DNA from: an uncultured Cetobacterium sp.
GTDB taxonomy: Bacteria > Fusobacteriota > Fusobacteriia > Fusobacteriales > Fusobacteriaceae
Reading direction: 5' to 3'
NCBI RefSeq assembly: GCF_945952365.1
Contig: NZ_CAMFHX010000014.1
Coordinates: forward strand, 1-64,000
Length of the DNA: 64,000 nucleotides
Every line of letters starts with the position of its first letter. The stretch's first letter is position 1. Position numbers and translations under genes: made by a program. This document shows positions 13,645-35,428 of this stretch, piece by piece. The notes below the pieces were generated by a model. That model did no database searches and was not told the origin of the DNA. It saw only the letters and a program-made list of their open reading frames with translations.

Positions 13645-14264
13645 TATAACATTCTCCTTTTCCCTTCAATATTTCTACTTTTTATTTTTTTAAAAATTCC
13701 ATTATTATAGTAATCATAATCCATTTTATTTTTTTTATTATTGATTATATACATAACATTCGCTTTTAAATATAAATCAACCCCATCTGTTTCTAACATT
13801 ATTGAATTCATTTTTAAAGCTATAAATTTTTGTTGTTCTTCCAATTCAGAAATAAAATTATAAACTCCTAACTCACTTCCATATAATTCATAATAAAAAT
13901 TTCCATAAATTTTTCCATCTACCTCTTCTAATACTTCTCTTCCTACAATTTCTAAATTTAAATTATTTTTTTTATTTAAACTGTTCAAATAATCAAGAAC
14001 ATCTTCAGTTCCCTCAAAAATAAAGTCATCATATTCTTTACTCTCTTTTTTAAATTCAATTTTTTCTAACTTTTCATTATACTCTTTCAAAGCTATCTCT
14101 TTTTCTAAAAGAGTTTTTTTTAAACTCTTTTGGATTTGATTCAAACTCTTTTTTTCATGACTTAATTCTTTTAAAGAAATTACTCGATCTATACATATAA
14201 ACAGTATTATTAAATTTATTATCCAATAAATAATTAGTTGTTTATTTAAATTTATTTGTTTTAT
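13644..14264 (-). CDS. GspM/PilO-like inner-membrane assembly protein, apparent ATA start
   Basis: From ATG, GTG or TTG codons alone the protein could only start at TTG 14144, leaving no membrane anchor. The frame stays open upstream and encodes a basic N terminus, a transmembrane helix (LIIYWIINLIILFICI) and a coiled coil, the architecture of PilO/GspM. The best start is ATA at 14264, five bases after GGAG. The periplasmic part ends in a ferredoxin-like PilO fold (GNFYYELYGSELGVYNFISEL). It overlaps the end of the GspL-like gene. The non-standard start is inference. Confidence 0.72.
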   Translation of the reverse strand: MKQINLNKQLIIYWIINLIILFICIDRVISLKELSHEKKSLNQIQKSLKKTLLEKEIALKEYNEKLEKIEFKKESKEYDDFIFEGTEDVLDYLNSLNKKNNLNLEIVGREVLEEVDGKIYGNFYYELYGSELGVYNFISELEEQQKFIALKMNSIMLETDGVDLYLKANVMYIINNKKNKMDYDYYNNGIFKKIKSRNIEGKRRML

Positions 14265-15497: not shown

Positions 15498-15981
15498 AGA
15501 ACCCCTCCAAAGTTACGCCAAACTCTTCTAAATAAAATCTAATTGTCATTCTTCTTAAGACAACTTCGCCACCTTTTAATTCTCTAATAATGTTGTCTGA
15601 CTTTTTACTAGCATAATGAGAAACTATATAATTACTTGATGTTTGATAATAAATCTCCACCTCTGTTTCATCTTGAAAAGGTATATACCTCTCTATTACT
15701 AACATATTTCCCTCTTTTAAACTTTCTTTTGAGTAATCAATAAATCTTGGAATATTTAAATATTCATAAATTTTATAAGATGAAGCTTCATGAAAAGAGG
15801 ATTGAATTTTTTTTAAAATAATATCACTATCTAACTTTGTTTGTATATCAATAAAAACTCTTCTATTTTCTATATTTAAATACTTAAAATAGATATTTAA
15901 AACCTGAAATATCACTGTACTTAGAAAAAAAATAACTATCAATTCAAGCAGTGTCGCTCCTTTATTTTTGTTTATATACAT
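15460..15981 (-). CDS. GspJ/PilW-like minor pseudopilin
   Basis: A 173-residue protein with a short type IV prepilin leader ending KNKG, followed by ATLLELIVIFFLSTVIF, giving Glu5 and the hydrophobic assembly helix. The globular part is beta-rich. Its position after the GspI-like gene and before the GspK-like gene matches the gspIJK order. It overlaps the stop of the preceding gene by about 20 bases. The GspJ label rests on order, length and leader. Confidence 0.78.
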   Translation of the reverse strand: MYINKNKGATLLELIVIFFLSTVIFQVLNIYFKYLNIENRRVFIDIQTKLDSDIILKKIQSSFHEASSYKIYEYLNIPRFIDYSKESLKEGNMLVIERYIPFQDETEVEIYYQTSSNYIVSHYASKKSDNIIRELKGGEVVLRRMTIRFYLEEFGVTLEGFYFKKEYRKELKE

Positions 15982-16297: not shown

Positions 16298-16745
16298 ATA
16301 CTCCTCCATATTTAAGTAAGACATATGAAAAAATTAAAAATGGACCAAATGCAATCTCTTTATCTATGTTCTTAAAAATAAAATATCTAATAACTATAAA
16401 AATTAATGCAGAGATAAAACTTATGTTTATAAACAATAATACATTAAAAAAATTATCAAATTTTAATAGTGTCCCTATAGATATCATTAGTTTTACATCT
16501 CCTAATCCGAGGCACTCCTTTTGAAAAAAATCGCTTCCGTAAGTATAAATTAATATAAAAGGTAGTGTATAAAGGGCACTTCCAATAATTCGTGCCCATA
16601 AATCATCATTTAAAATCCCGAAATATAGACCTATGAATAAAAGAGTTAAGTTGCTTCTATTCAATATTATTTTCTCTTTAAAATCTCGAATAATTATTTC
16701 TACTAAAATAAACATCTCTAATATAACTATTAAATCTCTTTCCAT
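16284..16745 (-). CDS. Short prepilin peptidase (A24 family)
   Basis: A 153-residue multi-pass membrane aspartic peptidase that would cleave the prepilin leaders encoded around it. The two catalytic aspartates are the D in IIIRDFKEK (about residue 21) and the D in GLGDVK (about residue 82). The N-terminal zinc/methyltransferase domain of full-length PilD/GspO is absent, so N-methylation must be done elsewhere or not at all. It sits within the pilin genes, between the GspG- and GspI-like genes, and overlaps both. Confidence 0.85.
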   Translation of the reverse strand: MERDLIVILEMFILVEIIIRDFKEKIILNRSNLTLLFIGLYFGILNDDLWARIIGSALYTLPFILIYTYGSDFFQKECLGLGDVKLMISIGTLLKFDNFFNVLLFINISFISALIFIVIRYFIFKNIDKEIAFGPFLIFSYVLLKYGGVYVKF

Positions 16746-22868: not shown

Positions 22869-22908
22869 ATATTTCTCCTTTTATTTTTGTTCATATACAT
22901 AAATAAAT

Positions 22909-22954: not shown

Positions 22955-24322
22955 TTATTTTCCTACACAGAAATTACTAAAGATGTGATCTAAAAGATCC
23001 TCATTACTAATCTCTCCTGTTACTTCTGACAATGAATCTAAAGCTTCTTTTAAATCTACTGCTATTAAGTCCATTGGCAATCCCATATCTATTGTTTCAA
23101 ATATATTTTCTACAGCTGCTTTAGTTTTTTCTAAAGCTGATTTATGTCTAACATTAGTAATAACTAATTTTTCAGAACTATCTTCAACTTGTCCAGAAAC
23201 TATATAGTTATAAATCTCTTTTTCCATTGAGTCTATTCCAATTTTTTCCAGTGCAGAAATTTTTATCCATTTTTTTATTTTTGTTAATGGTGTCGTATCT
23301 AACTTAGACTCAATATCTGTTTTATTTATAAGTCCAATAACTTTATCAGCTTGAATTCTTTCATGGATTTTTAAATCCTCTTCATCTAACTCTCTAGAGT
23401 TATCAACTACAAATAAAATTAAATCCGCTTTATCTATAAGTTCTTTTGATTTTTCTACACCTATATTTTCTACTAAATCATCTGTTTTTCTGATTCCCGC
23501 TGTATCAACTAAAACCAGTGGAACACCGTTTAAGTTTACAACTTCTTCAATTATATCTCTAGTAGTTCCAGCTACATGAGTTACTATAGCTCTCTCTTCT
23601 CTTAAAACAGAGTTTAATAAACTTGACTTTCCAACATTTGGTTTTCCAACAATTGCTGTTTTTACACCCTCTTTAATCATTTTTCCTTTATTATAAGATT
23701 TAATTAAAGCATCTGTTGTATTAACGACATTATGTAAATTGTCTACTAAATCATCTGGTAAAGGATCATCTATCCCCTCTTCTGGATAATCTAATACAAC
23801 ATTAACATGAGCTGAAACATCTAAAAGTTGCTTTTTTAAGATATCTATTTGCTCTCTTAAATCTCCTCTTAATTGATTTAAAGAAAGAGAGATACTTTTA
23901 TCTGTTTTTCCATGAATTAAATCAATTACAGCTTCTGCTTGAGTTAAATCAAGTCTTCCATTTAGGAAAGCTCTTCTTGTAAACTCACCAATTTCAGCAA
24001 TTCTAGCACCACTTTTCAATACTAGTTCTAAAACTCTCTCTGTAATTAAGAATCCTCCATGACAGTTAATTTCTACAATATCTTCTTTTGTGTATGTGTT
24101 AGGTCCTTTCATTATAGAAACCAAAACTTCATCTATTAACTCTTCACCATCATAAAGATGTCCGTAGTTTATACTAAAATTTCTAAGATCACTAACTTTT
24201 TTATTTGATATGGGTTTAAATATTTTTGTTAGTATACATAAAGAATCGCTTCCTGACATTCTAACAATTCCTATTCCACCTTCTCCTCTTGGAGTTGAAA
24301 TGGCAGCAATAGTATCAAACAT
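22955..24322 (-). CDS. mnmE: tRNA modification GTPase
   Basis: MnmE (TrmE) works with MnmG on wobble uridine modification. About 455 residues: an N-terminal folate-binding domain ([19 protein letters not shown]), a helical domain, an inserted G domain with [16 protein letters not shown] and NKTD motifs, and the C-terminal CVGK whose cysteine is characteristic. The ATG at 24322, preceded by GGGGTGAG, was chosen over the GTG at 24331. It is 11 bases from khpB. Confidence 0.97.
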
Positions 24323-26345: not shown

Positions 26346-26478
26346 ATGCTGATAATACTTGTCTTCCTCTTGCTCTTCTTCTCTTTAATACTTTTCTTCC
26401 GTTTTTAGTTGCCATTCTAGCTCTAAATCCGTGATCTTTTTTGTATTTTCTGTTATTTGGCTGGTAAGTTCTTTTCAT
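26344..26478 (-). CDS. rpmH: 50S ribosomal protein L34
   Basis: A 44-residue, highly basic protein read as [17 protein letters not shown] followed by [19 protein letters not shown], an unmistakable L34. The ATG follows AGGAGGTG. L34 is classically the gene beside dnaA and oriC; here the neighbour across the intergenic region is a Rep-like gene. Confidence 0.98.
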
Positions 26479-26516
26479 TTTTTCACCTCCTAAAAATATC
26501 TATATTTCAGATAAAT

Positions 26517-26545
26517 ATTTTAGAAGAATTTTTGAGTTTTGTCAA
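26517..26545 (-). promoter_or_regulatory. Promoter of rpmH
   Basis: On the minus strand TTGACA (26540-26545) is 17 bases from TAAAAT (26517-26522), with the start of rpmH about 40 bases beyond. Confidence 0.75.
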
Positions 26546-26727
26546 GTAAATTCTAATAAATAAAAATTTAAGTTAAAATCCTTTTAAATTCATTGAATAA
26601 ATTATTCTAAACAAGATTCACGCACATAGTTGTTTTTTGTTTTTTGTATAATGTTATATGTACAGACTAAGTTAAAAAAAAAACATGTGTTCAACCATTG
26701 ATTTATAAGAGTTTATATGAAAAAAAA

Positions 26728-27163
26728 TATTATTGATAGTATACACTAATAATATTCCTTGATTTTATTATACTTATAGGTATTGTATATTTTATAAACC
26801 TAGAAAAATCAAGGGTTTATAAATAAAACAATATATTATTGATAGTATACATAATAAGAAAGCTTGATTTTAAAGAGATTATAATCAATTAAATATTAAA
26901 GACTTCAATAAAATCAAAGGGTTATATAATATAAAAAATATTAATGTTCATATACACAATAAGAAGACTTGATTTTAAAGAGAGTTATTTATTCAGACTA
27001 TAAAAAATGTCAATAAAATCAAGGCATTTTGAAATATAAAAAATATTATTGTTAATATACATTTTTTAAGCCTTGATTTTATTGAATAAAAATAATTAAA
27101 AATTAAGAAAACCTTTGTAAATAAAGGGTTTGAAAAACTAAAAAATATTATTGTTAATATACA
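26728..27163. repeat. Five 18-bp direct repeats spaced 102-106 bp (iteron-like array)
   Basis: Copies begin at 26728, 26834, 26939, 27044 and 27146. The first two read TATTATTGATAGTATACA, the last two TATTATTGTTAATATACA, and the third is a variant, TATTAATGTTCATATACA. Start-to-start distances are 106, 105, 105 and 102 bases, close to ten helical turns, so all sites face one side of the DNA. Most copies are preceded by an A-run. The array is immediately upstream of a Rep-like gene, suggesting initiator-binding sites. Confidence 0.85.
26757..27084. repeat. Inverted ATCAAGG / CCTTGAT arms around the phased repeats
   Basis: CTTGATTTT occurs 10-12 bases after repeats 1-4 (starting 26758, 26863, 26968, 27072). 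The complementary AAAATCAAGG-type arm ends 18-20 bases before repeats 2-4 (26814, 26920 with one extra A, 27024). Around repeat 4 the arms are a perfect 14-bp inverted pair, CAATAAAATCAAGG (27011-27024) and CCTTGATTTTATTG (27071-27084). Each unit could form a stem-loop or bind a second protein. Confidence 0.78.
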
Positions 27164-27185
27164 GAAAAAATGCTATATTATATTA

Positions 27186-27225
27186 CGCTAAATATATTTA
27201 TTACTGTATATATACATATTTAGTG
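27186..27225. promoter_or_regulatory. Inverted repeat before the initiator gene, possible operator
   Basis: CGCTAAATAT (27186-27195) and ATATTTAGTG (27216-27225) are complementary with one mismatch, separated by 20 bases, and end 25 bases before the start of the Rep-like gene. Rep proteins often repress their own genes through such inverted half-sites. That role is inferred. Confidence 0.5.
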
Positions 27226-27250
27226 TTATAAAATTTATAGAGAGGTTTTT

Positions 27251-29101
27251 ATGGAGAAGAAGGTGAAAAAAGAAAAAGGTGATTTAGTTGAAAATTTTAA
27301 TATAAGTTCAACAGGATCCCTTTTAACAGATATAACAAAAATAGATATCAGATTAAACCAGCTACCGGATATAGAGGTTAGAGAGGTTATAATAAAAGAA
27401 ACAGGAAACTTTTTAAATTTAAAAGACAATGTGATAAATATACCTGTTGAAATGATAGTTTTTCCGTTTTTTACTCCACAAAAACAAAATAAGAGAGTAA
27501 ATTTTCAATATTCATTTGAGGATTTAGGTGTAACAATGTATTGTACATTAGTAGCTAAAGATTCAAAAGATAAAGTCTTTCAACCTTCAATATTTGAAGA
27601 AAAAATATACACATATTTAATTTCAACATATGAAGCTAAAAAAGATTTAGATAATGAAGATGAGTATATAGAATTTGAAATTTCAGATTTTATAGTTCAT
27701 TTTTTAGGAAATAAAATGAATAGAACTTATTATACAAAAGTAGAGCAAGCTTTAAAAAATTTAAAAAATACAGAGTACCAATTTATTGTATCCAATCATA
27801 CAAAGTTAGGGAAATACAAATTTGAAGATGAAGAATTCAAACTATTAACATATCAGAAATTGAAAAAAGGAAAAAAGATTTATTATAGAGTTACTTTAAA
27901 TAAAAATATAAGAAAAAAAATTAGTGATAAAAGATATATTAAGTATAACTCAAAAGCTTTAATGGAAATATTAGCTAAAGATCCAATAGCAGGAAGAATT
28001 TATAAATATATTAGTAAAATAAGATATGAAAAGCAAGAGGATCGTATGAATCTTAGAACAATAGCTGCTATTGTTCCATTAAAAACAGAACAAACAACAG
28101 AAAGAGTTAATAAAAATGGAGAGACTAAAACATATGTTTTATGTAGAATGAAACAAGTCTTAAAAAGAGTGGAAAAAGCTTATGATGTTTTAGTTGAATT
28201 AGGATATGTTGAGTACTATGAATCATATCAAGAAAAAGAGGAAGATACATATTATATTATATATAAATTTAATAGTGAGAAAGATGGAGAGTGTCATGTT
28301 TCTTCGTTTATAGAAAACAATAAAGTAAGTAAGCCAAAAGAGATTACATACTCAAAGGATAAAGAAAAATATAGTACTAAAAAAGAGTTGAATGTAGAGG
28401 AGATTGAAGAAGCCGAAGTTATAGAGGTTTTAGAAAAATCTGTAATTGAAGAAAAGCGAAAAGAAGACATTATTGAAAATGTTAAGAGAAAAATAATAAA
28501 GAAGCAGCCTGAAAGAGATGAGGCATTTAGTTATCCGGAAGAGGTAATAAAATATATTCAGAAAGCTAAAAAAAATATTTATGTTTCAAGATCTTGGGAT
28601 AAAAGAACAGATACTAAAATTAAAAAGATCTTTTTAGAAGAAGGAGAAGTAATTTTATTAGAGGTTTTAAAAATTATATATAAAAACTTAAATTCTAATA
28701 TAAAAACAACATTAGTTCAATATATAAATGGTGTTCTGAAAAATCTACTAAGTCAAGAGAATGATGTTTCAAAACAAAACTTAACACTTTTTAATAACAT
28801 AGTTAAAGAAAAAGGGTTAATTAGCAAAAAAAAGATAAATCAAGCGAGAAAAACAGTAAAAAAACCAGTTATAAATAGTATAAAAGAACTTATAGATGAA
28901 AATGAAATATCAATAGATATATTAAAGGTTTTTGATGAATATGATGAGTATGAAAAATTGAAAATAGAAGAACAAGCGATAAACTTATGTTCTTTAGAAG
29001 AAAATATTGATGTTAACTTTTTATTGACTATGAAAAGAAAATCAAAAAAAATCTATTTTAATACAATAAAGAAGTATATTGAGAGAGTTATTAATGAATA
29101 G
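27251..29101 (+). CDS. Rep-like replication initiator protein
   Basis: A 616-residue protein in the position usually held by dnaA. It has no AAA+ motifs of DnaA. The segment IPVEMIVFPFFTPQKQNK and the region up to about residue 200 resemble plasmid replication initiators of the RPA/Rep type. Two helix-rich segments, NRTYYTKVEQALKNLKNTEY (near 153) and MKQVLKRVEKAYDVLVELGY (near 300), look like the paired winged helices of iteron-binding Rep proteins. A charged linker (about 350-425) leads to a helical C-terminal domain. The site AGAGAGG precedes the ATG. Family assignment is by eye. Confidence 0.65.
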   Translation: MEKKVKKEKGDLVENFNISSTGSLLTDITKIDIRLNQLPDIEVREVIIKETGNFLNLKDNVINIPVEMIVFPFFTPQKQNKRVNFQYSFEDLGVTMYCTLVAKDSKDKVFQPSIFEEKIYTYLISTYEAKKDLDNEDEYIEFEISDFIVHFLGNKMNRTYYTKVEQALKNLKNTEYQFIVSNHTKLGKYKFEDEEFKLLTYQKLKKGKKIYYRVTLNKNIRKKISDKRYIKYNSKALMEILAKDPIAGRIYKYISKIRYEKQEDRMNLRTIAAIVPLKTEQTTERVNKNGETKTYVLCRMKQVLKRVEKAYDVLVELGYVEYYESYQEKEEDTYYIIYKFNSEKDGECHVSSFIENNKVSKPKEITYSKDKEKYSTKKELNVEEIEEAEVIEVLEKSVIEEKRKEDIIENVKRKIIKKQPERDEAFSYPEEVIKYIQKAKKNIYVSRSWDKRTDTKIKKIFLEEGEVILLEVLKIIYKNLNSNIKTTLVQYINGVLKNLLSQENDVSKQNLTLFNNIVKEKGLISKKKINQARKTVKKPVINSIKELIDENEISIDILKVFDEYDEYEKLKIEEQAINLCSLEENIDVNFLLTMKRKSKKIYFNTIKKYIERVINE

Positions 29102-29222
29102 ATTTAACAAAATGTTAAATATGTTAAATCAGAGTGTATAAAAGAGTTAAAATATCATAAAATACACAATTAAAGACTTAAAAATGAACATTTTTTGACA
29201 AAAAAACAATTCAAAATAAAAA

Positions 29223-29251
29223 TTGACAAAATTTTGAAAATTAAGTATTCT
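29223..29251 (+). promoter_or_regulatory. Promoter of ptsHI
   Basis: TTGACA (29223-29228) and TATTCT (29246-29251) with a 17-base spacer, about 75 bases before ptsH. The rest of the 226-base gap after the initiator gene is A-rich, with GTTAAAT repeats near 29105-29130. Confidence 0.7.
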
Positions 29252-29327
29252 ATATTAGAATAATAGATTTAAATTTTTATATTTTTATTTAATAATAAAC
29301 AATAAATGTAGAAAGGTGAGTAGGATT

Positions 29328-29591
29328 ATGGCAAATAAAACAGTTGAAATTAAAAATGAAACAGGACTACATACAAGACCTGGGAACGAATTTGTAAGTT
29401 TAGCAAAAACATTTACATCTCAAATTGAATTAGAGAACGAAGAGGGGAAAAAAGTAAAGGGGACTTCTTTATTAAAATTACTTTCTTTAGGAATTAAAAA
29501 AGGTGCAAAAATAACAGTTCATGCTGCTGGAGAAGATGAGAACGAAGCAGTTGAGAAGTTAGCTCACCTACTAGAAAATCTAAAGGACTAA
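29328..29591 (+). CDS. ptsH: Phosphocarrier protein HPr
   Basis: HPr passes phosphate from enzyme I to sugar-specific EIIA proteins of the PTS. The 87-residue protein has the phosphorylated histidine at His15 in TGLHTRPG. Ser47 in VKGTSLL aligns with the regulatory Ser46 of Firmicutes HPr, though no HPr kinase gene is in view. I chose ATG 29328 over the GTG at 29316, which lies in the ribosome-binding region. ptsI follows after a terminator-like hairpin. Confidence 0.96.
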   Translation: MANKTVEIKNETGLHTRPGNEFVSLAKTFTSQIELENEEGKKVKGTSLLKLLSLGIKKGAKITVHAAGEDENEAVEKLAHLLENLKD

Positions 29592-29620
29592 TAACATAGT
29601 ACGATAGTTTGAAGTGTGAG

Positions 29621-29650
29621 AAGGATGGGGGTAACTCTATCCTTTTTTTT
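29621..29650 (+). terminator. Terminator-like hairpin between ptsH and ptsI
   Basis: AAGGAT and ATCCTT form a 6-bp stem followed by eight T. It lies inside the ptsHI unit, so it is probably a leaky attenuator giving more HPr than enzyme I. Confidence 0.7.
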
Positions 29651-29680
29651 GTCAAAAAAAAATTTTGGGAGAGATAAAAT

Positions 29681-31423
29681 ATGAGAAAATTTGTAAAAGG
29701 TATAGATGCATCTCCAGGAGTAGCTGTTGGAAAAGTATTTTTATACAAGGAAGAAGAACTTTTCATAGACAAAACTGAGTGTTCAAATATTGAGATTCAA
29801 AAAGAAAAGTTAATCGAGGGAAGAGATAAAACTAAAGAGCAATTATTAAAAATTAGAGAGAAAACTGCTAGACAATTAGGTGAAGATAAAGCAGCAATAT
29901 TTGATGGACATATAACACTATTAGAAGATGAAGATTTATTTGATGAAGTTATCGAGTTAATCGAAGATGAAAGAATAACAGCAGAAAATGCATTAGAGCA
30001 AGGTATCAGCGGATATTGTGATATGTTAGCAAATTTAGAAGATGAGTACTTAAGAGAAAGGGCAGCAGACTTAAGAGATATTGCAAAAAGATGGTTATAC
30101 AACATTGTTGGAATTGATATAGTAGATCTATCTTCATTACCAGCTAATTCAGTAGTTGTAGCAAGAGATTTAACTCCATCGGATACAGCTCAATTAGATT
30201 TAAAAAATGTTGTGGCATTTATAACTGATATTGGAGGAAAAACAGCTCATTCATCGATTATGGCTAGATCATTAGAAATTCCAGCTGTAGTAGGAACAGG
30301 AAACATAACATCATTAGTTTCAAATGAAGCAGCTATAATAGTTGACGCATTAACAGGAGATGTTATTTTAAATCCAACAGAAGAGGATGTTGTAAAATAT
30401 ACAAAGAAAAGAGAAAATTATTTAGGAGAAAAAGAACTTCTAAAGCAATTAAAAGATAAAACAGCTACATCTAAAGATGGAGTAACAGTGGGAGCTTGGG
30501 CAAATATAGGGTCACCAAAAGATGTTGCAGGAGTTTTAAGAAATGGAGCTAATGGAATAGGTCTTTATAGAACAGAGTTCTTATTCATGGCTAATGATAG
30601 ATTCCCAACAGAGGATGAGCAGTTTGAAGCTTATAAAATAGTTGCAGAGTCAATGAAAGATGAAAATGGAAATCAATTCCCAGTAACTATAAGAACAATG
30701 GATATTGGTGGAGATAAATCTTTACCATACATGGAGTTACCTCATGAGGAAAATCCTTTCTTAGGATGGAGAGCTTTAAGAATATGTTTAGATAGACCTG
30801 AAATCTTAAAAACTCAATTTAGAGCACTTTTAAGAGCATCAGCTTTCGGATATATAAAAATAATGTTACCTATGGTAATCTCAATAGAAGAGTGTAGAAA
30901 ATCAAAAGAATTACTAGAAGAGTGTAAAGCTGAATTAAGATCAGAGGGAATAAAGTTTGATGAAGATATTCAATTAGGAATAATGATTGAAACTCCTGCA
31001 ACAGCTTTCAGAGCTAAATGGTTTGCACAAGAAGTAGATTTCTTCTCAATTGGAACAAACGATTTAACTCAATACACACTTGCTGTAGATAGAGGAAATG
31101 AGAGAATATCTCATCTATATGATACATACAACCCAGGAGTTTTAGCAGCGATAAAAGCAGCTATAGATGGAGCTCATGAAGGTGGAATCTCTATATCTAT
31201 GTGTGGAGAGTTTGCTGGAGAAGCTAGAGCAACAGCTTTATTATTTGGAATGGGATTAGATGCATTCTCAATGTCAGCTATATCGGTTGCAAAAGTAAAG
31301 AAAAATATAATGGCTATGGATAAAGCAGCAGCAGAAGCACTTGTAGAAAGAGTAATGGCTATGAGTACAACAGAAGATGTTTTAGCAGAAGTAGATAAAT
31401 TTAACGAAGAATTATTAGGATAA
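29681..31423 (+). CDS. ptsI: PTS enzyme I (phosphoenolpyruvate-protein phosphotransferase)
   Basis: Enzyme I takes phosphate from PEP and transfers it to HPr in the cytoplasm. The 580-residue length is standard. The active-site histidine is in GGKTAHSSIMARS (about His190). The C-terminal PEP-binding TIM-barrel has GIGLYRTEFLFM, and the dimer-side motif SIGTNDLTQYTLAVDRGNE with the catalytic cysteine in SMCGEFAG. GGGAGAG precedes the ATG. Confidence 0.97.
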   Translation: MRKFVKGIDASPGVAVGKVFLYKEEELFIDKTECSNIEIQKEKLIEGRDKTKEQLLKIREKTARQLGEDKAAIFDGHITLLEDEDLFDEVIELIEDERITAENALEQGISGYCDMLANLEDEYLRERAADLRDIAKRWLYNIVGIDIVDLSSLPANSVVVARDLTPSDTAQLDLKNVVAFITDIGGKTAHSSIMARSLEIPAVVGTGNITSLVSNEAAIIVDALTGDVILNPTEEDVVKYTKKRENYLGEKELLKQLKDKTATSKDGVTVGAWANIGSPKDVAGVLRNGANGIGLYRTEFLFMANDRFPTEDEQFEAYKIVAESMKDENGNQFPVTIRTMDIGGDKSLPYMELPHEENPFLGWRALRICLDRPEILKTQFRALLRASAFGYIKIMLPMVISIEECRKSKELLEECKAELRSEGIKFDEDIQLGIMIETPATAFRAKWFAQEVDFFSIGTNDLTQYTLAVDRGNERISHLYDTYNPGVLAAIKAAIDGAHEGGISISMCGEFAGEARATALLFGMGLDAFSMSAISVAKVKKNIMAMDKAAAEALVERVMAMSTTEDVLAEVDKFNEELLG

Positions 31424-31429
31424 TATAAA

Positions 31430-31458
31430 AAGGTGAAACAGTGTTTCACCTTTTTTTC
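31430..31458 (+). terminator. Terminator of ptsHI
   Basis: GGTGAAAC (31432-31439) pairs with GTTTCACC (31443-31450), followed by seven T. Confidence 0.9.
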
Positions 31459-31500
31459 ATTTTAGAGTATACTATGATAAAAAAATAAGGAGATGAAGTT

Positions 31501-32550
31501 ATGGGATTTAAAGATTTTAAAGTGGAAGTAAACAAAACAAATATTCTTCATAACTATCAGTATCTAAAAGAGCTTAGAAAAAAAGAGATTATTGCTGTGG
31601 TAAAGGCTAATGCTTATGGGCATGGAATAGAAAATATAGTCTCATTATTGTCAGAAAATGGATGTAGATACTTTGCTGTTGCAAGAGAGTGTGAAGCAGA
31701 AAAAATATTAAGTTTAAATTTAAAAAATATAGATATATTGATTTTAGAAACGATAGAGGATTTAAATTTTTTAAAACAACATAAAAATGTCGAAATGGTT
31801 GTAAGCAGTTTTAAAGATCTTATATTTTTATTGAATAATAATGTTTTCACTGAACAACTTCATTTAAAATTAGATTTTGGATTTGGAAGAAACGGAGTTG
31901 TAGAAGATGATTTTTTAAAATTAAAGAAATTAATTTTAGAGAAAAATTTAAAATTTAAAGGAATTTGTACTCATGTTTTTGCAGCTGATTATGAAGATAT
32001 GCTAGTTGTTGAGAGTAAATTTAATAAGATGTTATCAGAATTAGGTAAAGAGCGATTTGAGATTATACATATGCAAAATAGTGCAGGAGTTATTTCTATT
32101 GAAGGAGATGGATGTACTCACATAAGATGTGGGACAATTTTATTTGGACTTCAAGAGATAGGTTACTATGATCCTAATATAAAAAGAGCTTTTAAGCTAA
32201 TTGGAAAAATATTAGGTGTAAAAGATTTGAATGATTTAAAGTATATTGGATATGAGAAAAAAGAAAAAATAGTTTTGAATGAGCATAAAAAAATAGCAAA
32301 AATAAGATTAGGTTATGGAGATGGATTTTCTAAAAGAGGAGAAGGTATTATGTCTATAATCAATAATAAAAAGTTTGAAATAGTTCACATCAGTATGGAT
32401 AGTTCATTTATTTTAGTTGATGAGTCAGTAAAAGAAGGGGATTTTATAGAGATTTTTTATGATTTAGAAGACAGTATAAAATATTTAAAAGTTCCACATT
32501 ACGAATTTTTATCTTGTATCAATGATAGAATAAAAAGAGAATTAACATGA
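31501..32550 (+). CDS. alr: Alanine racemase
   Basis: A PLP enzyme making D-alanine for peptidoglycan. The PLP lysine is Lys35 in VVKANAYGHG. The second catalytic residue region is RLGYGDGFSKRG, whose tyrosine matches the family YADG site near residue 262. At 349 residues it is slightly shorter than usual. It stands alone between two terminator/promoter regions. Family membership is clear despite a divergent middle. Confidence 0.92.
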   Translation: MGFKDFKVEVNKTNILHNYQYLKELRKKEIIAVVKANAYGHGIENIVSLLSENGCRYFAVARECEAEKILSLNLKNIDILILETIEDLNFLKQHKNVEMVVSSFKDLIFLLNNNVFTEQLHLKLDFGFGRNGVVEDDFLKLKKLILEKNLKFKGICTHVFAADYEDMLVVESKFNKMLSELGKERFEIIHMQNSAGVISIEGDGCTHIRCGTILFGLQEIGYYDPNIKRAFKLIGKILGVKDLNDLKYIGYEKKEKIVLNEHKKIAKIRLGYGDGFSKRGEGIMSIINNKKFEIVHISMDSSFILVDESVKEGDFIEIFYDLEDSIKYLKVPHYEFLSCINDRIKRELT

Positions 32551-32586
32551 CTACGAACAAAAATAAAATTTTATTTTAAAAAAATA

Positions 32587-32615
32587 TTGACATTTTTTTT
32601 CAAATAAGATATTAT
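32587..32615 (+). promoter_or_regulatory. Promoter of the metNIQ operon
   Basis: TTGACA (32587-32592), a 17-base spacer and TATTAT (32610-32615), just before the SAM riboswitch. Confidence 0.85.
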
Positions 32616-32621
32616 TACTCA

Positions 32622-32712
32622 AAACCATCAAGAGAGACCGAGGGACTGGCCCGTCGACGTTTCAGCAACCTACCAAAGAGTGTGGTGCTAATTCCAGAAA
32701 GATGGGAGAGGT
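32622..32712 (+). promoter_or_regulatory. SAM-I (S-box) riboswitch
   Basis: The S-box core is recognisable: CAAGAGAGACCGAGGGACTG, the GGCCC, the CAGCAACC and the GGTGCTAATTCC elements. P1 is CCATC (32625-32629) with GATGG (32701-32705). SAM binding should expose the downstream terminator and shut off methionine import when SAM is plentiful. Confidence 0.95.
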
Positions 32713-32726
32713 CTAAATTTGATTAA

Positions 32727-32771
32727 TTTACTCTCATCTTAATTAAAAATTAAGATGAGAGTTTTTTTTTT
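32727..32771 (+). terminator. SAM-controlled attenuator terminator
   Basis: ACTCTCATCTTAATT pairs perfectly with AATTAAGATGAGAGT and is followed by nine T. The GGGAGAG at the end of the riboswitch can pair with its 5' arm as an anti-terminator. Confidence 0.92.
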
Positions 32772-32791
32772 ACTCGGGAGGATTAAAAATT

Positions 32792-33799
32792 ATGATTAGA
32801 TTAGAAAATGTTAATAAGATTTATAACAACGGTTTTCATGCAGTAAAAGATGTGTCACTAAATATTAAAAAAGGTGAGATTTTTGGAATTATAGGGTTGA
32901 GTGGAGCAGGAAAATCATCTTTAATAAGATTGTTTAATGGATTGGAAAATTTAAATACAGGATCAATAAAAGTCGAAGATACTGATATAGCAAAACTTTC
33001 TAAAAAAGATCTTTTAGAAAAAAGAAAAAAAATTGGAATGATATTTCAACATTTTAATCTTTTGAAATCTAAAAATGTAAAAGAAAATATTGCTTTTGCT
33101 TTGGAAGTTGCGGGATGGAAAAAATTTGATATAAGAAATAGAGTTGACGAATTACTAAAATTAGTTGAACTTCAGGATAAAGGAGATTTTTATCCAGCAC
33201 AACTTTCTGGAGGACAAAAACAAAGAGTTGCAATAGCTAGAGCTTTGGCAAACAATCCGAAGATTCTTTTATCGGATGAGGCAACTTCTGCACTTGATCC
33301 AAAAACTACAAAATCAATTTTAGCTTTAATAAAAGATATACAGAAAAAAATGGATTTAACAGTTGTACTTATTACTCATCAAATGGAAGTTATAAGAGAG
33401 ATTTGTGATAAGGTTGCAGTTATGTCAAATGGAGAGATTATAGAGAGTGGTAGAACTCACGAAATATTTTTAAATCCTCAAACTGAAGTTACAAAAGAGT
33501 TAATTTCGTACGTGCCAGCTCAAGAGAAAGAGGAGATAGAGTTTATAAAGAAACCTGGAAATAAAGTTATTAAACTTATGTTTTTAGGGTCAATAGCTGG
33601 TGATCCGATTCTTTCTAAAGCAGTTAGAAAATTTGATTTAGATATAAATGTACTTGGTGGATCAATCGATTTATTGGCAACAATGCAGGTAGGACACCTG
33701 ATTGTGGAGTTAATTGGAGACTTAGAAAAACAAAATGAAGCGATAGAATGGTTTCCTAGTTTAGATGTAGGAGTGGAGGTAGTTTATAATGGTGTTTAA
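32792..33799 (+). CDS. metN: Methionine ABC transporter ATPase
   Basis: MetN powers D/L-methionine import with MetI and MetQ. The 335-residue protein has Walker [10 protein letters not shown], signature [15 protein letters not shown] and Walker [16 protein letters not shown]-terminal NIL domain (about 255-335) binds methionine for transinhibition. The SAM riboswitch directly upstream supports the substrate. The stop overlaps metI by 11 bases. Confidence 0.96.
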
Positions 33800-34439
33800 T
33801 ATGTTAATACAAGCAACAATAGAGACAATTTACATGGTTATATTTTCAGCGATAGTTTCTCTTTTGATAGGATTCCCATGTGGAATTTTAGCTGCAATAA
33901 CATCTGAAGGACATATTTATGAAAATAAAGTAATTAATAGTTTTTTAAATGGAGTTATAAATATAACAAGATCTTTTCCTTACATTATTCTTATGATTCT
34001 GTTACTTCCATTATCAAGATTTATAATAGGAACAACGATAGGGAGTACAGCGGCTATTGTACCGCTTTCAATATCAGCAGCACCTTTTGTAGCAAGAATA
34101 GTAGAGAACTGCGTTTTAGAGGTAGATAGAGGTGTTATAGAAGCCAGTGAGAGCTTAGGAGCTAACAACTATACGATAATAAGAAAAGTTATAATACCTG
34201 AATCATTACCATCATTAACTCAAGGAATAACTTTATTAATAATTAACCTAATCGGTTTATCTGCAATGGCAGGTGCAATAGGTGGAGGTGGTTTAGGAGA
34301 TTTAGCTATAAGATTTGGTTATAATCGTTTTAAACTAGATATAATGATTTATTCAGTTTTAGTAATTATTATACTGGTTCAAGGAATTCAGTTAATAGGA
34401 AATTTAATATCAAATAGATTGAAAAAAACTGGGAGGTAG
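33789..34439 (+). CDS. metI: Methionine ABC transporter permease
   Basis: A 216-residue inner-membrane permease with five predicted transmembrane helices and the coupling-helix signature [24 protein letters not shown] 33789 lies inside the end of metN, seven bases after the GGAGG of TGGAGGTAG, so the two are probably translationally coupled. metQ follows two bases after its stop. Confidence 0.95.
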
Positions 34440-34441
34440 TT

Positions 34442-35212
34442 ATGAAAAAATTAGTTTTATTATTGGGATTAGTAGGTTCAATTGTGAGTTATGGAGCAAA
34501 ACTGAAAGTCGGAGCATCACCTGTTCCACATGCACAGTTATTACAACTTGTAAAAGATGATTTAAAAAACCAGGATATTGATTTAGAAATAATAGAGTTA
34601 ACAGATTATGTAACACCAAATTTACTTTTAGATTCGAAAGAGTTAGATGCTAATTTCTTCCAACACAAACCATATTTAGATACTTTTTCAAAAGAGAAAA
34701 ATTTAAAATTAGCAATAGCAGGAAATATACATGTAGAACCGTTAGGTGTTTATTCAAAAAAAGTAAATAAATTAGAAGACTTAAAAAAAGGTGGAGTTGT
34801 AGCTATTCCAAATGATCCAACAAATGGTGGAAGAGCTTTAATTTTACTTCATAATAAAGGGATTATAAAGTTAAAAAACCCTACAGACCTTTTAGCAACA
34901 GAGTTTGATATAGTAGAAAATAAAAATAATCTTAAATTTAAATCTTTAGATGCAGCACAAATTCCAAGAGCATTAACAGATGTAGATTTAGCGGTTGTAA
35001 ATGGAAACTATGCCTTAGAAGCTGGACTTAATCCTTTAACAGAAGCTCTTATAATAGAGGGAAAAGAATCTCCATATGCTAATTTAGTAGCAGTAAGAGA
35101 AGGGGATGAAAAAAGAGAAGATATTCAAAAGTTAATAAAAGCGTTACAGAGTGAAAAGGTAAAAGAGTTTATAGAAGTGACATATAAAGGAGCAGTAGTA
35201 ACAGCATTTTAA
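34442..35212 (+). CDS. metQ: Methionine-binding protein
   Basis: The periplasmic solute receptor for MetNI, 256 residues, NlpA/YaeC family (VGASPVPHAQLL, ELDANFFQHKPYLD). The N terminus is a plain signal peptide ending near SYGA. There is no lipobox cysteine, so unlike E. coli MetQ it is probably a soluble periplasmic protein. It is the last gene of the SAM-controlled operon and is followed by a terminator. Confidence 0.95.
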   Translation: MKKLVLLLGLVGSIVSYGAKLKVGASPVPHAQLLQLVKDDLKNQDIDLEIIELTDYVTPNLLLDSKELDANFFQHKPYLDTFSKEKNLKLAIAGNIHVEPLGVYSKKVNKLEDLKKGGVVAIPNDPTNGGRALILLHNKGIIKLKNPTDLLATEFDIVENKNNLKFKSLDAAQIPRALTDVDLAVVNGNYALEAGLNPLTEALIIEGKESPYANLVAVREGDEKREDIQKLIKALQSEKVKEFIEVTYKGAVVTAF

Positions 35213-35363: not shown

Positions 35364-35392
35364 TTGACTATTAAAAATATTTTTGATAATAT
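35364..35392 (+). promoter_or_regulatory. Promoter of the sigma-54 activator gene
   Basis: TTGACT (35364-35369) and TAATAT (35387-35392) with a 17-base spacer, ahead of the activator start at 35429. Confidence 0.6.
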
Positions 35393-35428
35393 ACATATAT
35401 TAAATTGGTGTAGTTTAAAAGGAGTAAG

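Follow-up and report, generated by a model that had tools for sequence, protein, structure and literature searches.

The window analysed here, a stretch of 64,000 nucleotides from an uncultured Cetobacterium sp. (contig NZ_CAMFHX010000014.1, positions 1 to 64,000), contains an AT-rich gap that is bordered on one side by rpmH and on the other by an open reading frame (ORF), here called rep, at the place where dnaA would be expected. The frame starts with ATG, encodes 616 amino acids and is a real ORF; the preliminary description of this DNA had proposed that its product, Rep, is a plasmid-like initiator. We examined Rep and the adjoining gap, a putative chromosome origin, in the window and across the phylum (coordinates in Table 1).

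Only one Pfam family passed its cut-off with Rep, namely, PF10134 (RPA; 31.6 bits against a gathering threshold of 27, residues 69 to 270), which is matched by no other protein of the genome and, at an E value of ≤0.1, by 30 of 45 relatives. The Rep_3 families PF01051 and PF21205 gave no match, searches of NCBIfam and PHROGs found nothing, phage relatives were not found, and a sequence profile of Rep returned nothing from the PDB beyond winged-helix chance matches; a confident match to an unrelated family was likewise not seen. An AlphaFold model built on a 45-member alignment, with a mean predicted local distance difference test score of 69 and unsure domain packing, contains two winged-helix-like halves (residues ~83 to 225 and ~234 to 340), a disordered linker (~350 to 425) and a helical C-terminal module (~427 to 503 and ~556 to 616), the architecture that had been predicted from the letters. 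The closest solved structures in a Foldseek comparison were domains 2-3 of RctB (E = 7.8e-7), RepE54 (3.9e-3) and Pi (9e-3); as modeled, Rep has the twin winged-helix fold of iteron-type theta initiators (RepE/Pi/RctB class). It has neither the AAA+ domain III nor the domain IV helix-turn-helix of DnaA, and a profile-profile comparison with fusobacterial DnaA gave no relation (probability, 0.4%), so that the reported lack of a DnaA signature was confirmed as well. Taken alone, the C-terminal module has no structural relative and no Pfam family. On fusobacterial plasmids (L101, 2866 to 4347; L102 to L106), Rep_3 or Rep_3-like initiators carry a fused module of this kind as well (~410 to 612 in Rep), which fits a role in host contact that is common to both.

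The neighborhood identifies the seat of rep. In sister families (L067/L068, L072, L073 and L074), the order is mnmG-mnmE-jag-yidC-yidD-rnpA-rpmH, a gap, and then dnaA-S4-(recF)-dciA-gyrB-gyrA; in Fusobacteriaceae (L051, L054, L056-L062, L078, L080, L081 and L084), it is mnmG-mnmE-jag-yidC-yidD-rnpA-rpmH, a gap, and then Rep-S4-recF-dciA-gyrB-gyrA, the sole change being Rep for dnaA, and Fusobacterium vincentii agrees with this pattern. The proposal of a Rep-like initiator at the expected place of dnaA is supported by the PF10134 match, synteny and the RctB/RepE/Pi fold. In Cetobacterium and some others, recF-dciA-gyrBA has been relocated and ptsH-ptsI now follows Rep, with the left side intact; accordingly, rep is succeeded in the window by ptsH-ptsI-alr (27251 to 35212), and the genome's own dciA lies on another contig (C29). 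Rep was found in 59 of 61 Fusobacteriaceae genomes, always full-length and at the rpmH seat in the complete genomes examined, and as contig-end fragments only in G051 and G056. DciA is kept in 57 of the 61. A chromid coexists with, and is distinct from, a main chromosome that bears dnaA; Rep does not fit this definition, as its neighbors are the mnmG-rpmH and recF-gyrAB genes of the main, and often only, chromosome.

DnaA itself was sought in 98 Fusobacteriota genomes, 61 of Fusobacteriaceae and 37 of other families, with family assignment resting on the records of Ilyobacter, Fusobacterium and Propionigenium. PF00308 had no match in the Cetobacterium genome under study (98.7% complete) and, across the 61 Fusobacteriaceae genomes, matched only short frames, partially and with at most 47 bits; these are probably IstB/DnaC-type ATPases. 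PF08299 (domain IV) exceeded its cut-off in none of the 61, and a profile made from eight fusobacterial DnaAs yielded partial matches of at most 40 bits that never reached domain IV. The negatives include complete single-contig genomes (G015, G025-G027, G037 and G038). In the other families, DnaA was present in 36 of 37 genomes (PF00308, 154 to 252 bits), the exception being 82% complete. Judging from these sequences, DnaA appears to have been lost from Fusobacteriaceae, the family to which both Fusobacterium and Cetobacterium belong. The preliminary description had left open whether Rep acts alone or together with a DnaA encoded elsewhere; since genome-wide and family-wide searches gave no DnaA, the first branch is supported and the second is not.

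The gap between rpmH and rep contains six direct copies of an iteron, against 0.05 expected by shuffling, bearing out the earlier mention of repeats adjoining the gene. The motif, ATTWTTGNNNRTRTACAT, recurs in 2 to 17 copies, nearly always on one strand, in all 23 rpmH-Rep gaps of the genera fetched, including that of a GC-richer genome (G050); shuffles yield about 0.03, with means of 0 to 0.1, and the per-gap counts are not fully independent, as the matrix was learnt on these gaps. Spacing clusters at 103 to 106 bp, with side groups at 93 to 95 and 115 to 118 bp, and is nonrandom above a jitter null, with a best-fit period of 11.7 to 11.8; given these values, a strict 10.5-bp phase law was dropped. 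The DnaA box TTATNCACA is absent from all 23 Fusobacteriaceae gaps, and several sister-family oriCs carry TTATNCACA boxes and no iterons. A second conserved element is T-rich, with a TG each 7 to 8 bp and the end ATGTAnnGA; in most genomes, it precedes iteron 1 by 74 to 97 bp, and it outscores all 100 shuffles in 19 of 24 genomes, the genome's own genus being excluded from the matrix. A cognate direct-repeat array thus stands beside the gene in 23 of 23 gaps, and together with the fold this places Rep in the iteron-initiator class. Cooperation with host DnaA by way of DnaA boxes at the origin is common, though not universal, among theta initiators of this type; with no TTATNCACA box in any gap and no DnaA found in the genomes, Rep is a DnaA-free variant.

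As an independent check on the iterons, we scanned the whole genome for the exact pattern, using the reversed pattern as a control. Nine matches were obtained, all on the forward strand and all between 13.7 and 35.4 kb of the window (22 kb), against one for the control; in sampled sequence, the background was 3 per 1.2 Mb. Besides the satellite iterons in Table 1, further ones flank the origin at 16419 and 32346. These satellites fit the titration and handcuffing sites known from RctB (PMC6090056).

Table 1. Features of the putative origin region and its surroundings (window positions)
Feature	Position	Strand	Remarks
rep	27251..29101	+	616-aa RPA-type twin winged-helix initiator (as modeled) with disordered linker and helical C-terminal module; syntenic place of dnaA
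Putative chromosome origin	26479..27250	+	772-bp gap of 18% GC from rpmH to rep, at the GC-skew switch
T-rich element, TG every 7 bp (TGTTTTTTGTTTTTTGTATAATGTTATATGTACAGACTAAG)	26631..26672	+	Candidate unwinding element; conserved
Iteron 1, ATTATTGATAGTATACA	26729..26745	+	
Iteron 2, ATTATTGATAGTATACA	26835..26851	+	
Iteron 3, ATTAATGTTCATATACA	26940..26956	+	
Iteron 4, ATTATTGTTAATATACA	27045..27061	+	
Iteron 5, ATTATTGTTAATATACA	27147..27163	+	Includes putative -35 box of the rep promoter
Iteron 6, ATTACTGTATATATACA	27200..27216	+	
rpmH	26347..26478	-	First gene of the left replichore (rpmH-rnpA-yidD-yidC-jag-mnmE-mnmG); conserved left border of oriC
Satellite iteron	13737..13753	+	
Satellite iteron	15964..15980	+	
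Satellite iteron	22883..22899	+	Between mnmG and mnmE; recurs there in other Cetobacterium genomes and genus g14 (L064)
Satellite iteron	24222..24238	+	In 5' end of mnmE; coding conservation could also explain retention
Satellite iteron	35379..35395	+	Intergenic

GC skew in the window passes from about -0.3 to about +0.3 across the gap, changing sign at 25 to 27 kb, and the genes diverge from the gap. On the chromosomes of three sampled complete relatives, the skew reverses at Rep and a second time close to the opposite side.

The chromosomal Reps form one clade (Shimodaira-Hasegawa-like approximate likelihood ratio test, 99) apart from plasmid Reps in a quick tree with long branches, and their distances track those of mnmE, mnmG, yidC and rnpA (Mantel r, 0.60 to 0.90). 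Outside the family, Haliovirga has dnaA on its chromosome and a relative of Rep beside ParAB on a 297.5-kb plasmid (pHIC). The simplest reading of these sequences is that a plasmid initiator was captured once, at the place of dnaA, in the ancestor of Fusobacteriaceae; on the sequence evidence, Rep and its iteron array replaced dnaA and its boxes in situ and have been inherited vertically since. We also considered that the chromosomal iteron might be common to the plasmid relatives, and rejected this, since it was not found upstream of the eight examined. Plasmid relatives within the phylum, as on pHIC, could also mean that Rep belongs to an integrated plasmid or mobile element that landed at oriC by chance, the start being made by a DnaA that escaped detection or by a recombination- or transcription-driven route independent of DnaA; for cyanobacteria lacking DnaA, replication is reported to proceed with no initiator known (PMC7198777). 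We consider this very unlikely, however: the seat of Rep is the same in all genera examined, the window has no mobile genes beside rep, the single clade is congruent with host genes, conserved iterons and the skew switch coincide with Rep, and DnaA was found by none of the three profiles.

Iteron 5, 104 bp before rep, supplies a putative -35 box (TTGTTA, 27151 to 27156) at 17 bp from a -10 box (TATATT, 27174 to 27179). In at least 10 of 23 genomes, a putative -35 box is overlapped by the promoter-proximal iteron, which suggests autoregulation of rep. The same overlap could be taken to mean that the array serves transcription, as an operator of rep, instead of replication. We regard this as very unlikely, since the copies number five or more and span 500 bp, far past the extent of a promoter, the array coincides with the skew switch and has another conserved element within a narrow range of distances, and satellite iterons occur kilobases away. 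Also very unlikely is a very divergent DnaA that would leave Rep an accessory or regulatory factor at oriC: PMC1924603 describes an ORF of "low identity to DnaA" in Fusobacterium nucleatum polymorphum, but we rejected it as a real DnaA, since F. vincentii and other relatives have Rep, which is not homologous to DnaA, at the corresponding position, and since domain IV is found nowhere in the 61 genomes and DnaA boxes are gone from the gap.

Together, these observations make it very probable that Rep, a plasmid-type initiator that has been domesticated, starts the Fusobacteriaceae chromosome in place of DnaA. It also seems likely, with somewhat more reserve, that all or nearly all Fusobacteriaceae start their primary chromosome with a domesticated plasmid iteron initiator in cells devoid of DnaA, and that this is the first bacterial family known to do so; the C-terminal module, common to fusobacterial initiators, would take over helicase recruitment, and the origin would have a new plan (a T-rich, TG-phased opening element and, at 74 to 97 bp, iterons ~105 bp apart). 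For the function of Rep at the origin, we infer the following course. Rep would bind the 17- to 18-bp iterons via both winged helices, and the occupied, roughly helically spaced array would bend the 18%-GC gap, whose opening may then occur at the T-rich, TG-phased element next to iteron 1. Recruitment of the helicase DnaB, elsewhere the job of DnaA, would fall to the helical C-terminal module and to DciA, a loader that has been retained. Rep would repress its own promoter when bound to the iteron in which the -35 box lies, and satellite iterons within ~14 kb on either side may titrate or handcuff Rep and so limit reinitiation, as for RctB on Vibrio chromosome 2.

Several points weigh against this interpretation. 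The periodicity of the iterons matches 10.5 bp only approximately, the skew of G025 is noisy away from the origin, and helicase recruitment by a C-terminal module without a known fold match is conjecture. Additionally, no Rep was detected in G039 (93% complete) or G045 (70%), and only a paralogue was detected in G060; since G039 and G045 each have 18 iteron matches, these absences are probably assembly gaps.

Among known systems, RctB/ori2 of Vibrio cholerae chromosome 2, the best structural match, is similar in combining a large initiator with extra domains, a chromosome-scale replicon, direct-repeat iterons, autoregulation and origin-proximal titration sites (PMC6090056), the last two being inferred for Rep. 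However, RctB serves a secondary chromosome in a cell that relies on DnaA for the main one, and ori2 itself requires a DnaA box, whereas Rep resides on a main chromosome for which no DnaA was found; RctB iterons are 12-mers 10 to 11 bp apart, compared with units of 17 to 18 bp ~105 bp apart here. The RPA-type plasmid initiators (PF10134; Haliovirga pHIC and Ilyobacter pILYOP01/02) belong to the same family as Rep, with 29 to 44% identity and the same domain order, but drive plasmids or megaplasmids, one of them beside ParAB, and the eight examined lack the chromosomal iteron upstream. Rep_3 initiators (RepE, Pi and RepA) have the twin winged-helix fold in common with Rep, and some fusobacterial plasmid ones share its C-terminal module, although Rep has no PF01051 match. 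Finally, dnaA was likewise lost in DnaA-less cyanobacteria and endosymbionts (PMC7198777); free-living DnaA-less cyanobacteria have multiple origins or irregular-skew replication and no identified replacement, whereas in Fusobacteriaceae the skew has one regular switch and the former place of dnaA is taken by a replacement initiator. Textbook accounts treat DnaA as the nearly universal initiator of bacteria; one source reports dnaA losses for symbionts and a few cyanobacteria (PMC7198777), and another holds that "virtually all bacteria have DnaA" (PMC5835720). Literature searches, which covered open papers, turned up no statement that Fusobacteriaceae lack DnaA or use a Rep.

Fusobacterium is a human oral commensal and opportunist. 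If the reading given here is true, its family offers a natural experiment in which the master initiator was replaced while gene order, a single skewed chromosome and DciA stayed, and once-per-cycle control of a main chromosome by an iteron system, helicase loading without DnaA and the routes of DnaA loss would become testable. Software that relies on dnaA or on plasmid rep genes to rotate or classify replicons can give misleading results in this family: the 2.1-Mb replicon NZ_CP084075.1 (L121) of F. vincentii SB055, with the chromosomal order around Rep, is recorded as "plasmid pSB055A." In G009, a second, stop-ridden Rep lies in an inverted duplication with ptsHI on contig C6 (L085, 3919 to 5708); this copy is either an assembly artefact or a pseudogene, and the contig also carries an intact Rep that is found on contig C4 as well.
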